A stretch of 28,579 nt of DNA from a virus. Of this stretch, positions 13,029-17,427 are shown one piece after another. The notes under the pieces are model-generated. The model made no database searches and was not told where the DNA came from. It saw nothing but the letters and a program-made list of their open reading frames with translations. The position numbers were made by a program, and so were the translations under genes. The stretch's first letter is position 1. Each line of letters opens with the position of its first letter. The stretch lies in the IMG/VR virus record IMGVR_UViG_3300030429_000009, positions 1-28,579 of that record, one strand, 5' to 3'.

Positions 13029-13586
13029 TCAGGCCTCCTTTTTCACGGGCTCACCGCGATATGCGGTTTGCAGGTTGATCAGGCTTTCGGCATAGGCCTT
13101 GTCCGCCACGGTCATGCCGTCATGCGATACCACGCCGCGCGAAATGGCATCCGCAACCGGGTCAGCCTTGGCTGCATCCTCGGCCAAGATGTCAAAGCGC
13201 GCGTCGATATACGCCTCGGACTTGCCAGTGACCGCTTCATCGCCCAGCTTGGCGACCACGACGGCCTTGCGCAGCGCCGCGTCAGTCATGCCGGTGGGTT
13301 TCACCTCATCGGTGATTTTTGCGGCCTTGGTCTCAAGGGCCACGCGATCTGCGACCAGCTTTGCCTTGTCCTCGTCGCTGAGAATTTTGCCCTCAAGCTC
13401 CTTGATCTTGGCGTCCTTGGTGGCGATCTCCTTGTCCTTCGCCGCGATGGCGTCGGCGTGGATCTTGGCTGCGTCGGTTACAGCCTTGGCCTGATCGGCC
13501 TTGAACTGCTCGATGATGGCTGCGTCAGCGACCGCGACTTGCGCGGCCTTGTCACCCAGCACCACCGTCTTGAGAGCGTCAGACAT
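13029..13586 (-). CDS. Nested in-frame scaffold protein (internal start)
   Basis: An internal ATG at codon 226 of the protease-scaffold gene is preceded by AAGGAG with a six-base spacer (AAAAAGGAGACTGAA before ATG). Translation from there gives a 185-residue protein beginning MSDALKTVVLGDKAAQVAVA that holds the whole coiled-coil region and none of the protease. This is the layout of lambda C/Nu3, in which the scaffold is made separately from the same frame. It would be made in excess, assemble with the capsid protein, and then be cleaved out. The ribosome site is seen; production of the short form is inferred. Confidence 0.65.
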   Translation of the reverse strand: MSDALKTVVLGDKAAQVAVADAAIIEQFKADQAKAVTDAAKIHADAIAAKDKEIATKDAKIKELEGKILSDEDKAKLVADRVALETKAAKITDEVKPTGMTDAALRKAVVVAKLGDEAVTGKSEAYIDARFDILAEDAAKADPVADAISRGVVSHDGMTVADKAYAESLINLQTAYRGEPVKKEA

Positions 13587-14261
13587 TTCAGTCTCCTTTT
13601 TCCTGCTCTTTTCGGGGTAGATCGGGGCCGCGCCCCATTTGGCCGCACCGTCACCAATGCGGAACTCGTCGCCAGCGCGCCCTGCGGGCACGACAGCAAT
13701 ATGGTCGATATAGATATCACGCTGAATTGCGTCGTATGGCGTTCCATCCTCGGTGACGCCGGGAGTGCGATCAATCTTGGCCACATACCCCGCCGATAGC
13801 TGTCTCGCCGTGCCCGATTCCAGCTTGTCCACAAGCGATTTGGCCGAAACGGTCAGGTCGATCTGAACCGCCTCCCCATCGCGCTGCACGCCCATGACGG
13901 TGCCACGAGCAAAGGAATCCCAATTGTCCGCAGTGACGCGTTCACCGGGGTGGCCGTCAGTGATCGGCTTGCCCTTGTAACTGGCCAGCGAGTCCATGCG
14001 CATGACCTCATCAAGCGGGCGATAGACCGCAACGCGCTCCTTTTCCGGCCAATCCATTTCGTCGCCAGTGTAGATTTGAATGCCAGTGCGCGCCGCCTTT
14101 ACCCGCCCAGCCAGATAGCCATCCTTGTGACGCTTGACGCCGGTCAGTGCGCTGGCGTCGATTACCTCTGTGAAGGCAACGCGCCCCGTGCGGTCCTGAT
14201 CGGCGATGGCTACGTCTGCGGCGATCTGCTCTCCATCCTCGGCAATGCGACGGTCGGTCAT
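13029..14261 (-). CDS. Prohead protease-scaffold fusion (DUF2213)
   Basis: A 410-residue protein made of two parts. Residues about 20-210 are a DUF2213-type prohead protease region, with FTEVIDASALTGVKRHKDGY, YKGKPITDGHPGERV and the conserved QLSAGY and YIDHIAVVPAGRAG segments, which hold the likely catalytic serine and histidine. Residues about 226-410 are charged and alanine-rich with a coiled coil (about 255-310, repeated KDKEIATKDAKIKEL), as in scaffolding proteins. The protease would mature the prohead and remove the scaffold. An internal ATG with a strong ribosome site at the junction probably makes the scaffold alone. The ATG at 14261 overlaps the portal stop. Confidence 0.8.
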   Translation of the reverse strand: MTDRRIAEDGEQIAADVAIADQDRTGRVAFTEVIDASALTGVKRHKDGYLAGRVKAARTGIQIYTGDEMDWPEKERVAVYRPLDEVMRMDSLASYKGKPITDGHPGERVTADNWDSFARGTVMGVQRDGEAVQIDLTVSAKSLVDKLESGTARQLSAGYVAKIDRTPGVTEDGTPYDAIQRDIYIDHIAVVPAGRAGDEFRIGDGAAKWGAAPIYPEKSRKKETEMSDALKTVVLGDKAAQVAVADAAIIEQFKADQAKAVTDAAKIHADAIAAKDKEIATKDAKIKELEGKILSDEDKAKLVADRVALETKAAKITDEVKPTGMTDAALRKAVVVAKLGDEAVTGKSEAYIDARFDILAEDAAKADPVADAISRGVVSHDGMTVADKAYAESLINLQTAYRGEPVKKEA

Positions 14262-16093
14262 TGTTCCGTTACCCCCTCATGCCACTTTTCGTTGATGGCC
14301 TCGAATATCTCTGGCCCGAGAAGGATTCGGCCCTTGTAAGGCTCGATGTCCGCAAGATCCGGTGCGTCTGGATCGTATGAAATCGTGATGTGCGGTTGAT
14401 ACTCGGGATGATCCCAAGTCGCCCCTTGGCGCTTCATTTCCTCGTGCCGCCATGAAAGCTCCGATGAATTGAACAACAACACGCGCGCCTCGCCGAATTG
14501 CTCCATCAGGCGCGCACCACCGGGGGCGATTTCAGGGTTTTCCCGCCATGTCTCACCCATCTTCATCCAGTCGACAGGGGTGCGGCTGAACATAACGGTG
14601 ACGTGCATGTCGTCAGCGGGCAGCGTCGTTTTGAAGCCCTGCCCCTTCGCCCAAGCAATAATCTCATCCGCATTCAGCACGTCACGTCGAACATAGAGTG
14701 TGCGGGGCGCGGCATCTGCGACCTGTGACGCATCGCCCTCTTGCCCGTCTGGCAACAGACCACGCTCGACCGTGTCAAGGCTGTCGTCGCTCTCAAACGG
14801 GAATTCCTCGGCGTATCCCTCAAGGCCGGGGAAAGCGCCGCTTTCAGTCAGGGCATTGACCAAAGCCTTACCCGCCGCTTCCTCAGAGACAGCGCCCATT
14901 TCGGCGGCAATCTTCATTGTCTCGGCGGCGACCTTGCCCGTATCTGCACGCTCTTTCGCCGTGGGCTGCCAAAGCGATCGCCACGTGTAATGCAGATCGG
15001 CGGGACGCTCGTTCAAGGCAGACCAGATCACGCACTCGTCCAGAACCGACATAGCGGGCTGCATGCGTAGGGTCTGCTCGACCTTCACCTTGTCGTAGTA
15101 GGCTCGCGTGTCACTTGCGCCGGTTGCGTTCAGCCCGCCGGGGCTGATCATGAAATACAGCGTCATGGGGATGCCAACGGCAGCACTGGCAAGCTGCATG
15201 AAACGATCCAGAATGTCCGGCAACCCCCCAAAGCTCGCGGATTTGCTGGCGTATTCCTCCAGCGCGTCCAGCATCAGCGTGCCATTGATCCCCTTTGCGG
15301 TCGCGGCTAGAGTCAGCCGGCGCAAGACCTCCTGTTCGTATGCCGTCCCTCGCTTTTGCAGGTTGGACATGAGATCGGGGATCTTCACCACATCAACCTT
15401 CGCCTCATAAGTCAGCGAATTGACATTGGTGGCCAGCTCGTCAACGCGGCGCAGCGCATCCAGCATCCCCGGCAAAACAGACCGGCCCCAGCCGTCCGCA
15501 GTCGTCTTGCTCTTAATGTCCCCCAGCGGCGCAATGCCGTGAAAAATCACCAGCCGCGAGGGGTGAATATCAAGCGGCAAACCCTCTGCCGTTTTGACCG
15601 ACCAGAATTTGGGCTTACCAAATCCTTCTTGGCGCGGGTCTCGCTCAATCTCTCGCGCGCTCATTTCGTCGCGCGAAAGCACCGTTAAGTATTTCAGCCC
15701 GCCAATGGTCAGGCGCTTAGGGTCCAGCGGCTTCGACGGGTCTGCATCGCCAGTGCCGATCAGAATAGCCGCGCCGCCATAAAGCCGCGCCAAGCGTCTC
15801 GCCTCGAAAACCTTTGCCTTGAGCCCGAGCCGCATTTCCTCGGTCTCGATTGCGCTGATGTCAACCGCTTCGGCCTGCCACTCGCGCCACTCACGGCAGG
15901 AATCCTCTGCGGGCATGTCAATCGCCCGCTGGATCATCGAAGACGCCTCGTAAGCCTCCAAAATATCTATATGGCTCATCGCCACACTGGCGTAATGCGC
16001 TTGCCCGCCCTTGTCGCGCGCCGTGCCCATGCCAGACACAAGATTCAGCAGCCCGTCGTTGATCGGCTGGATTTTGTCTTGCGTCTTTGTCAT
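14258..16093 (-). CDS. Portal protein (DUF1073) fused to Acb1-like 2H phosphoesterase
   Basis: A 611-residue protein next to the large terminase. Residues 1 to about 430 are a DUF1073-type portal: MIQRAIDMPAEDSCREWREW, LYGGAAILIGTGDADPSKPL, the PLGDIKSKTTADGWGRSVLP region and GIPMTLYFMISPGGLNATGA are typical. The portal is the dodecameric DNA gate at one vertex. An acidic linker (about 431-461) leads to a 150-residue C-terminal domain with two H-x-T motifs (H497/T499 and H568/T570), the signature of 2H phosphoesterases and of the phage anti-CBASS nuclease Acb1. The gene starts at the ATG at 16093 and overlaps the terminase stop. The portal call is sure; the anti-CBASS role is an inference. 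Confidence 0.88.
   Translation of the reverse strand: MTKTQDKIQPINDGLLNLVSGMGTARDKGGQAHYASVAMSHIDILEAYEASSMIQRAIDMPAEDSCREWREWQAEAVDISAIETEEMRLGLKAKVFEARRLARLYGGAAILIGTGDADPSKPLDPKRLTIGGLKYLTVLSRDEMSAREIERDPRQEGFGKPKFWSVKTAEGLPLDIHPSRLVIFHGIAPLGDIKSKTTADGWGRSVLPGMLDALRRVDELATNVNSLTYEAKVDVVKIPDLMSNLQKRGTAYEQEVLRRLTLAATAKGINGTLMLDALEEYASKSASFGGLPDILDRFMQLASAAVGIPMTLYFMISPGGLNATGASDTRAYYDKVKVEQTLRMQPAMSVLDECVIWSALNERPADLHYTWRSLWQPTAKERADTGKVAAETMKIAAEMGAVSEEAAGKALVNALTESGAFPGLEGYAEEFPFESDDSLDTVERGLLPDGQEGDASQVADAAPRTLYVRRDVLNADEIIAWAKGQGFKTTLPADDMHVTVMFSRTPVDWMKMGETWRENPEIAPGGARLMEQFGEARVLLFNSSELSWRHEEMKRQGATWDHPEYQPHITISYDPDAPDLADIEPYKGRILLGPEIFEAINEKWHEGVTEQ
14261..14710 (-). other. Acb1-like 2H phosphoesterase domain of the portal gene
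   Basis: Codons 462-611 of the portal gene. The domain opens RTLYVRRDVLNADEIIAWAK and has HVT (497-499) and HIT (568-570) motifs 71 residues apart; T4 Acb1 is about the same size with its catalytic histidines about 69 apart (from memory). Acb1 cuts the cyclic oligonucleotides used by CBASS immunity. No in-frame ATG with a ribosome site lies before the domain, so it seems to be made only as part of the portal protein, unless released by proteolysis. Confidence 0.7.
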
Positions 16094-17427
16094 CAGAGGG
16101 CACCTGTCAGGCTGTAATTGTGTCCGAGGAGCATCAAATCAGTGAGCGCCCATACCAGCGCGTCGGCTCTGTCCGGCGATCCTTCACCGATAAAGCCAGC
16201 AGCAGTGAAGTTGCACATTTGATCCTCCAGATCGGGAAACTCCCCGACGTGGTGAACTCTACCCTGCTCGTATAGGGCGCTGATCGGTTCTGCCCTGACC
16301 GCCTTGCCACGGCTTGCGACCACCTCAGAAAAAGCGGCGGTTCTGTCTGCTGTGGCGACTGTGAATCGCACCATGTCACCACCATAGTTGCGCTCTCCGA
16401 TGATCCGGTCGGCCTCAAACCTGTGGTAAAGATCAACGGCGCGCCTGCCCCATCCTTCTGGCGACATCTGGCAAGTCCCATCGTGCAGAACGTAGCCCTG
16501 ACCATCCACGCCAAGGCCAGCCACGACGATCCCGATATCATCGCCGCCGCCATCGCCACGCGTGCCGGACGGGTCAACCGACACCACAATCCGCTGCATT
16601 TCTGGGGCGCTGGCAACGCGCAGGCTGTCAATGCCCGGCATAACCTTGCCGTCAGGGGCTTTCCGATCCTCCTGCGCCCAGAGCGCACCATTGATGTCGC
16701 TGGCCCACTCACCGGCCTCGAACCGGAGGCGCTTGGCTGCTGACATGGACGCCAGAACGTCAAAGTACTCTGGCGGCAGGTTATCGGCATTGTCCGCCGG
16801 GTTGACTTGCATCTCCACGTAGTCTTCGGGCTTTGCCAGCGCCTCTTTCGTGCCCGGCTTCATCTTGGCCCGGAACATCTGGTAGGACCAATGCAGCTTT
16901 GAGGGCGGGTTGCAGTCGAAGTATGCCTTGAGCGACAAGTACTGTCGCCCGGTGGTCTGCGCTATCTCGGGTGCCAGCTCGCACTTTTGAGCCAGGCGCG
17001 ACATTGCCGTCTCGACAGACCCCCACGGTATCTGACTGCTCTCGTTGAAATAGAGCGTGGCGTATTCTTGCCCAAGGATCTTCTCAACACGTTCCTTGTC
17101 GTCTAGGCCAGCAATCCAGATTTCAGAGTCGTTCGGCAGCTCGATGTAGAAGTCTGTCTTGTCGAACCTGACCCGGAGTGACGGGAAACACAGGCTCAAG
17201 ACCTTTGGCAGCGTATCAGACCAAACCGAGGTCTTGGCGTGATTGAACCGAAACCGAAATATCACATGCCTCGATCCGGGGGAGTTGATTGCCCTTTGGA
17301 TCAGCGCCCGGATCAGCAGGAAGGTTTTGCCCGATCGAGAGCCACCGCGCAGCATGACGTTGCGCGCTGGTCCTGCCAGTAGCCGGTTAGCCTCCCTCTG
17401 CTTGGGCGTAAGTTGTGCGATTGCCAT
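16093..17427 (-). CDS. terL: Terminase large subunit
   Basis: A 444-residue ATP-driven packaging motor with nuclease. The Walker A motif GGSRSGKT is at residues 28-35 and the Walker B-like ATLYFNES at 123-130, with asparagine before the catalytic glutamate, as in other PBSX-type terminases. The nuclease domain starts with VSVDPSGTRGDGGGDDIGIV (first acidic residue about 283), continues with IGERNYGGDMVRFTVA and ends with RADALVWALTDL, whose aspartate is the last metal ligand. It would cut concatemeric DNA and pump it through the portal, whose gene follows with a three-base overlap. The start is the ATG at 17427 just after the small subunit stop. Confidence 0.93.
   Translation of the reverse strand: MAIAQLTPKQREANRLLAGPARNVMLRGGSRSGKTFLLIRALIQRAINSPGSRHVIFRFRFNHAKTSVWSDTLPKVLSLCFPSLRVRFDKTDFYIELPNDSEIWIAGLDDKERVEKILGQEYATLYFNESSQIPWGSVETAMSRLAQKCELAPEIAQTTGRQYLSLKAYFDCNPPSKLHWSYQMFRAKMKPGTKEALAKPEDYVEMQVNPADNADNLPPEYFDVLASMSAAKRLRFEAGEWASDINGALWAQEDRKAPDGKVMPGIDSLRVASAPEMQRIVVSVDPSGTRGDGGGDDIGIVVAGLGVDGQGYVLHDGTCQMSPEGWGRRAVDLYHRFEADRIIGERNYGGDMVRFTVATADRTAAFSEVVASRGKAVRAEPISALYEQGRVHHVGEFPDLEDQMCNFTAAGFIGEGSPDRADALVWALTDLMLLGHNYSLTGAL

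Follow-up and report, generated by a model that had tools for sequence, protein, structure and literature searches.

The portal gene of the virus studied here encodes a portal protein that ends in a domain of the Acb1 family. The same domain occurs on portals of the Mu and HK97 types and on head proteases of the DUF2213, Peptidase_S78 and XkdF types, and this recurrence on several partner families is our main new result. Sequence, predicted structure and analogy with known systems together suggest that the domain is probably an active Acb1, made late in infection, tied to head assembly and destroying the messengers of the CBASS defence in the producing cell.

Where does the domain lie? The initial annotation placed a 611-residue portal protein with an additional C-terminal domain at 14258–16093, without giving a strand. 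It is present there, on the minus strand. The fusion gene and its neighbours in the window, which is the whole 28,579-base IMG/VR virus record, are as follows.

14258..16093, minus strand: portal–Acb1 fusion protein, 611 aa (ORF list, profile matches and alignment of relatives)
14912..15967, minus strand: portal domain (Phage_portal_3/DUF1073), residues 43–394 (Pfam, 3.4e-95; Foldseek top match Pam3 portal 8hds)
14714..14794, minus strand: disordered linker, residues 434–460 (full-length model, pLDDT <50)
14702..14716, minus strand: junction motif D-A-A-P-R, residues 460–464 (alignment of DUF1073-portal fusions)
14276..14704, minus strand: Acb1 domain, residues 464–606 (PF23474, 2e-43; model pLDDT 93.5; top PDB matches 7t26/7t27)
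14597..14605, minus strand: first HxT motif, H497-V-T499, equivalent to T4 Acb1 H44/T46 (alignment in T4 numbering)
14384..14392, minus strand: second HxT motif, H568-I-T570, equivalent to T4 Acb1 H113/T115 (alignment in T4 numbering)
16093..17427, minus strand: upstream ORF read as terminase large subunit (TerL), overlapping the portal start by 1 base (position, and relatives with TerL before the portal)
13029..14261, minus strand: DUF2213 protein at the position of the head maturation protease, its ATG overlapping the portal stop (Pfam PF09979, 3.4e-46)

Residues 43–394 match Phage_portal_3 (PF06381) with an E-value of 3.4e-95, the portal part scores 231 bits against TIGR01555 (cut-off 196), and the portal of Pam3 (8hds) is the best Foldseek match to its fold. 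PHROG 146 also matches the portal part, in a match that extends over both the portal and the Acb1 parts. The reading frame is unbroken across the two, as it is in 110 distinct relatives. The portal gene overlaps both of its neighbours, its ATG with the stop of the putative TerL ORF and its own stop with the ATG of the DUF2213 gene; in phage Silvergun, the gene at the DUF2213 position is annotated as the head maturation protease. This overlapping order of TerL, portal and protease makes it plausible that, as had been proposed, the domain is synthesized late and in bulk with the head genes. We also considered whether a free Acb1 might be made from an internal start. A start preceded by a Shine–Dalgarno sequence is absent at the domain boundary in the window and was found in only 7 of 144 relatives, and we rejected this as a general rule.

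Is the C-terminal domain truly an Acb1? Residues 464–606 match the Acb1 profile PF23474 with an E-value of 2e-43 and 148 bits against a curated cut-off of 27, so that the match is not a chance one. The fold predicted by AlphaFold2 with 50 relatives has a pLDDT of 93.5. In a Foldseek search with this model the first two ranks are taken by Acb1 of Erwinia phage FBB1, apo and product-bound (7t26 and 7t27; E ~4e-8, TM 0.70–0.79), followed by Acb1 of Burkholderia phage BCSR5 and E. coli LigT. The two HxT motifs, their histidines 71 residues apart, lie exactly where the initial annotation had put them. When aligned with a T4-type Acb1, H497, T499, H568 and T570 correspond to H44, T46, H113 and T115 in T4 numbering. 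Among 40 full-length relatives the first three of these residues are invariant and T570 is nearly so. Across all architectures, 134 distinct domains comprise 110 with HT/HT, 20 with HT/HS, two that are truncated and two that are substituted, so that 130 of 132 complete domains keep a full catalytic tetrad, a figure partly biased by the presence of the histidine motifs in several of the search patterns. We conclude that the identity of the domain as a true Acb1-family 2H phosphoesterase, as first proposed, is well supported by profile, fold and catalytic residues.

How widespread is this arrangement? Fusions of Acb1 to a DUF1073 portal number 110 distinct ORFs across all loci. They account for 63 of the 66 first relatives in viral contigs and occur in cultured phages, among them phiPSA1, Pam3, RHEph04, Erebus and HMSP1-Susan. 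By Pfam, Acb1 is also C-terminal on 11 distinct Mu-type portals (Portal_Mu; loci L063, L138, L162, L163, L185, L193, L196–L199 and L201) and on three HK97-type portals (Phage_portal PF04860; L147, L152 and L170). On the head proteases it is N-terminal: on three DUF2213 proteins (L158, L171 and L172), on one Peptidase_S78 prohead protease (L164) and on four XkdF-type proteases (L064, L066, L175 and L189), the protease match of L064 being below the Pfam cut-off. A free acb1 gene stands beside the portal gene, in the same operon, in Edwardsiella phage ZHS, Synechococcus phage Yong-M3-232 and L173. A simple account of these architectures is that an acb1 gene came to sit amid the genes for portal and protease and became fused to one or the other. 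A tree of 95 rows, many of its forks weak, requires at least eight changes among the portal-fused, protease-fused and free states. In all 110 relatives the Acb1 part is more identical than the portal part; since the relatives were fetched by their Acb1 part, this comparison is biased, and we did not use it as evidence.

Four portals with 44–47% identity in the portal part, those of Kintu, Silvergun, RHph_N28_2 and the Ak57 prophage of S. meliloti, have no Acb1 domain and stop at 436–490 residues, and we found no other Acb1 in these four records. Acb1 is thus an accessory module, absent from close relatives of the same portal. In HMM sampling, a match over the cut-off was present in 2 of 385 alphaproteobacterial genomes and in 14 of 249 genomes of one alphaproteobacterial family; within the latter, unbiased sample, 14 of 15 such matches were in ORFs of at least 600 residues.

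If the domain is an accessory, what might it be for? We predict a cyclic-oligonucleotide phosphodiesterase, made within the portal protein late in infection, that would cleave 3′3′-cGAMP-like or cyclic trinucleotide messengers of CBASS. Nine further Acb1 homologues are active on 3′3′-cGAMP and cAAA (Hobbs et al., PMC9117128), and in another system the prohead protease of phage Bas13 has been reported, as cited in PMC12409349, to interact with and trigger a CBASS sensor. That one enzyme domain recurs on portals of three families and on head proteases of three more suggests that evasion of CBASS is tied to head assembly, and by analogy with Bas13 the choice of prohead proteases and portals as partners would fit evasion at that stage. 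The benefit would come while and where heads are being built in the producing cell, a stage at which the prohead protease and other head proteins can trigger CBASS. Fusion to the portal or protease would set the dose, the timing and a location near the portal vertex or core of the procapsid, and the maturation protease may cut the tether. More tentatively, and with something short of even confidence, we suggest that phages have repeatedly wired a predicted anti-CBASS nuclease into the procapsid core, through portal C-termini and protease N-termini, coupling evasion to head maturation and possibly to delivery by the virion. The enzyme would then be synthesized and positioned, and perhaps set free, at the very site where assembling heads set off CBASS.

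What becomes of the domain in the virion? The tether, residues 434–460, is disordered in the full-length model (pLDDT <50). Just before the Acb1 domain, the DUF1073-portal fusions keep D in 100, A in 97 and P in 99 of 101 sequences, the rest of the linker being unconserved. The Mu-portal fusions have a different conserved stretch, S-F-A-A-x-D-P, at the same place; neither stretch is found in the protease fusions, and the junction D-A is not conserved in the protease and HK97-portal fusions. One reading of the junction motif, from its conservation, is that it is a possible processing site. In the virion structure of the Pam3 portal (8hds), 442 of 621 residues are modelled and the Acb1 part is not among them; the Pam3 portal is absent from the best 50 Foldseek matches when the Acb1 domain is the query. 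From these two results, the domain in the mature virion is either mobile or gone. The last 124 residues of the Mu portal are likewise missing from its virion structure, and their cleavage during head assembly has been proposed (PMC11915804). The suggestion that each virion carries 12 active copies of the enzyme is thus not supported by either portal.

Could the domain instead be a cargo? On this account the portal or protease would serve as an address label: Acb1 would be carried into the procapsid, freed by the maturation protease, kept within the head and ejected with the DNA so as to guard the next host early in infection, in the manner of the P1 Dar and T4 internal proteins. Prohead proteases and the C-termini of portals do face the procapsid interior, and the C-terminal barrel of the E217 portal projects into the head (PMC10329688). 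The D-A-x-P at the end of the DUF1073-portal linker and the S-F-A-A-x-D-P of the Mu portals could be the cutting sites, Mu gp29 is thought to lose its C-terminus during head assembly (PMC11915804), the Acb1 part is missing from the Pam3 virion model, and in phage P1 the prohead protease processes DarA, which is co-ejected (PMC12810830). On the other hand, a domain that is cut off could equally be degraded or lost. We looked in the window for a protease-site motif common to the capsid, DUF2213 or decoration-like proteins and did not find one; DAxP is in none of the window's capsid protein, DUF2213 protein and 160-residue decoration-like protein. We consider delivery as cargo unlikely. After DNA ejection the empty capsid stays outside the cell and keeps its portal, and for this reason an uncut portal-borne enzyme would act in the producing cell and not in the next one.

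Does the active site speak for the same substrates as those of T4 Acb1? The equivalent of Y12 is present in the window, with tyrosine in 164 of 175 rows of that column, and the equivalent of W147 is present in the window and in most relatives. At the equivalent of the adenine-contacting E141 the window has glutamate, as do only some 60% of the fusions to DUF1073 portals. At the position of W74, the base-stacking residue of T4, the window has glutamate and most of the family an acidic residue (E or D); the position of F107 is histidine in the window. The kept tetrad leaves the catalytic centre intact, the replaced W74 and variable E141 make for a partly altered base pocket, and the substrate range of the fused domains, judged from these residues, may differ from that of T4 Acb1. 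Might the reaction then be another one altogether, such as RNA 2′,3′-cyclic phosphate or 2′-5′ linkage chemistry, a reaction on another nucleotide signal, or else nucleotide sensing in packaging? LigT is among the Foldseek matches, the W74 and E141 positions have changed, and the domain constantly accompanies head genes. However, the Acb1 structures outrank LigT (4e-8 against 2e-5), Y12 and W147 are largely kept, and the domain is missing from many related portals. We regard a different reaction as improbable.

Do genomes with Acb1 also carry CBASS? A cyclase scored over the cut-off in 11 of 50 Acb1-carrying genomes, compared with 14 of 385 class-wide. In a family-matched sample a cyclase was present in 3 of 14 fusion genomes and in 28 of 235 others, without clear excess. 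Since the class-wide excess is not clear after matching, we dropped co-occurrence with CBASS as support. A two-gene CBASS lies within one prophage (L180:6231–7852, on the contig of L157, Mesorhizobium sp. YIM 152430). It consists of a SMODS cyclase (PDLC00814, 1.7e-112) and a 2TM effector (3.4e-59), abuts TerL in the opposite orientation, and lies some 1.6 kb from the start of that prophage's own portal–Acb1 gene. No further copies of its cyclase were found in viral contigs. Such proximity might mean that the portal-linked Acb1 keeps a prophage-borne CBASS from aborting the prophage's own lytic cycle. But this is a single case, and wherever else a genome has both Acb1 and a cyclase, the genes are separated by hundreds of kilobases or sit on separate contigs; as an explanation of the fusions we think it very unlikely.

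That the domain is a dead remnant or an annotation artefact, as the rare losses in L098 (R at the first histidine) and L175 (N at the second) might suggest, is largely refuted by the preservation of the tetrad in all but two of the 132 complete distinct domains, the continuous frame in 110 distinct relatives and the confidently predicted fold (pLDDT 93.5), and hardly merits credence.

How does the proposed late-made, head-linked Acb1 compare with known systems? The Pam3 portal of the Pseudanabaena phage, about 40% identical to that of the window, has the same two-domain architecture over its whole length (E 1e-138), with HVT and HIS motifs; the passages on the portal in the Pam3 genome paper do not mention an enzyme domain. 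The T4 internal proteins are anti-defence proteins packaged in the head and ejected with the DNA. Acb1 of T4 (57B) and of FBB1 (7t26/7t27; PMC9117128) shares with the window the 2H fold, the HxT/HxT motifs and the equivalents of Y12, E141 and W147, while W74 of T4 is not conserved and E141 is variable in the fusion family. It is a stand-alone protein, active in T4 from about 15 min (PMC9117128), whereas the Acb1 of the window is a predicted enzyme that forms a domain of a head protein. The Dar proteins of P1 (PMC12810830) link anti-defence to head assembly and to processing by the prohead protease, as the Acb1 fusions may do. However, the Dar and T4 internal proteins are separate internal proteins directed against restriction, whereas the Acb1 fusions place a predicted nucleotide-degrading domain on the portal itself.

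An earlier description has Acb1 as rare and confined to particular groups of phages (PMC11722364). In our data the domain recurs as a module of head operons, with six partner families, and its carriers are phages and prophages whose hosts are many alphaproteobacteria and some gammaproteobacteria. If the fused domains are active, immune evasion would be tied to the phase of infection in which head proteins seem to be sensed by CBASS, a link between evasion and head assembly that point mutants could test directly. A counter-defence enzyme would also lie hidden under the labels DUF1073, portal, prohead protein and prohead protease. The initial annotation had expected such fusions to be concealed in databases, and they are indeed present as ‘DUF1073’ or ‘portal protein’ entries; in E. 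coli RefSeq, DUF1073 portals are labelled plainly ‘DUF1073 domain-containing protein’. The Acb1 part of the fusions is already detectable by Pfam, and in some databases DUF1073 has already been renamed after Acb1. As far as our literature search reached, most subscription papers lying outside the searchable text, the fusions are undescribed, and the main text of Hobbs et al. (PMC9117128) nowhere uses the word ‘portal’.

Three stand-alone Acb1 proteins (L073:2989–3441, L074:2116–2715 and L068:2019–2435) carry the public labels ‘prohead protease’ or ‘phage prohead protein’, and Pfam finds only Acb1/2H models in them; the ‘prohead’ label was probably carried over from Acb1–protease fusions. The DUF1073-portal fusion L098, with arginine in place of its first catalytic histidine, offers a naturally occurring candidate for an inactive enzyme. 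In L175:5320–8481, an ORF of 1054 residues joins a NUDIX domain, an Acb1 domain (second histidine replaced by N) and an XkdF-type protease. A single ORF at L155:5827–6888 encodes an Acb1 domain and, after it, a Gp49-like (HigB toxin-like) domain, and the 2699-residue ORF at L183:2343–10439 has Acb1, at residues 889–1031, as its one named domain.
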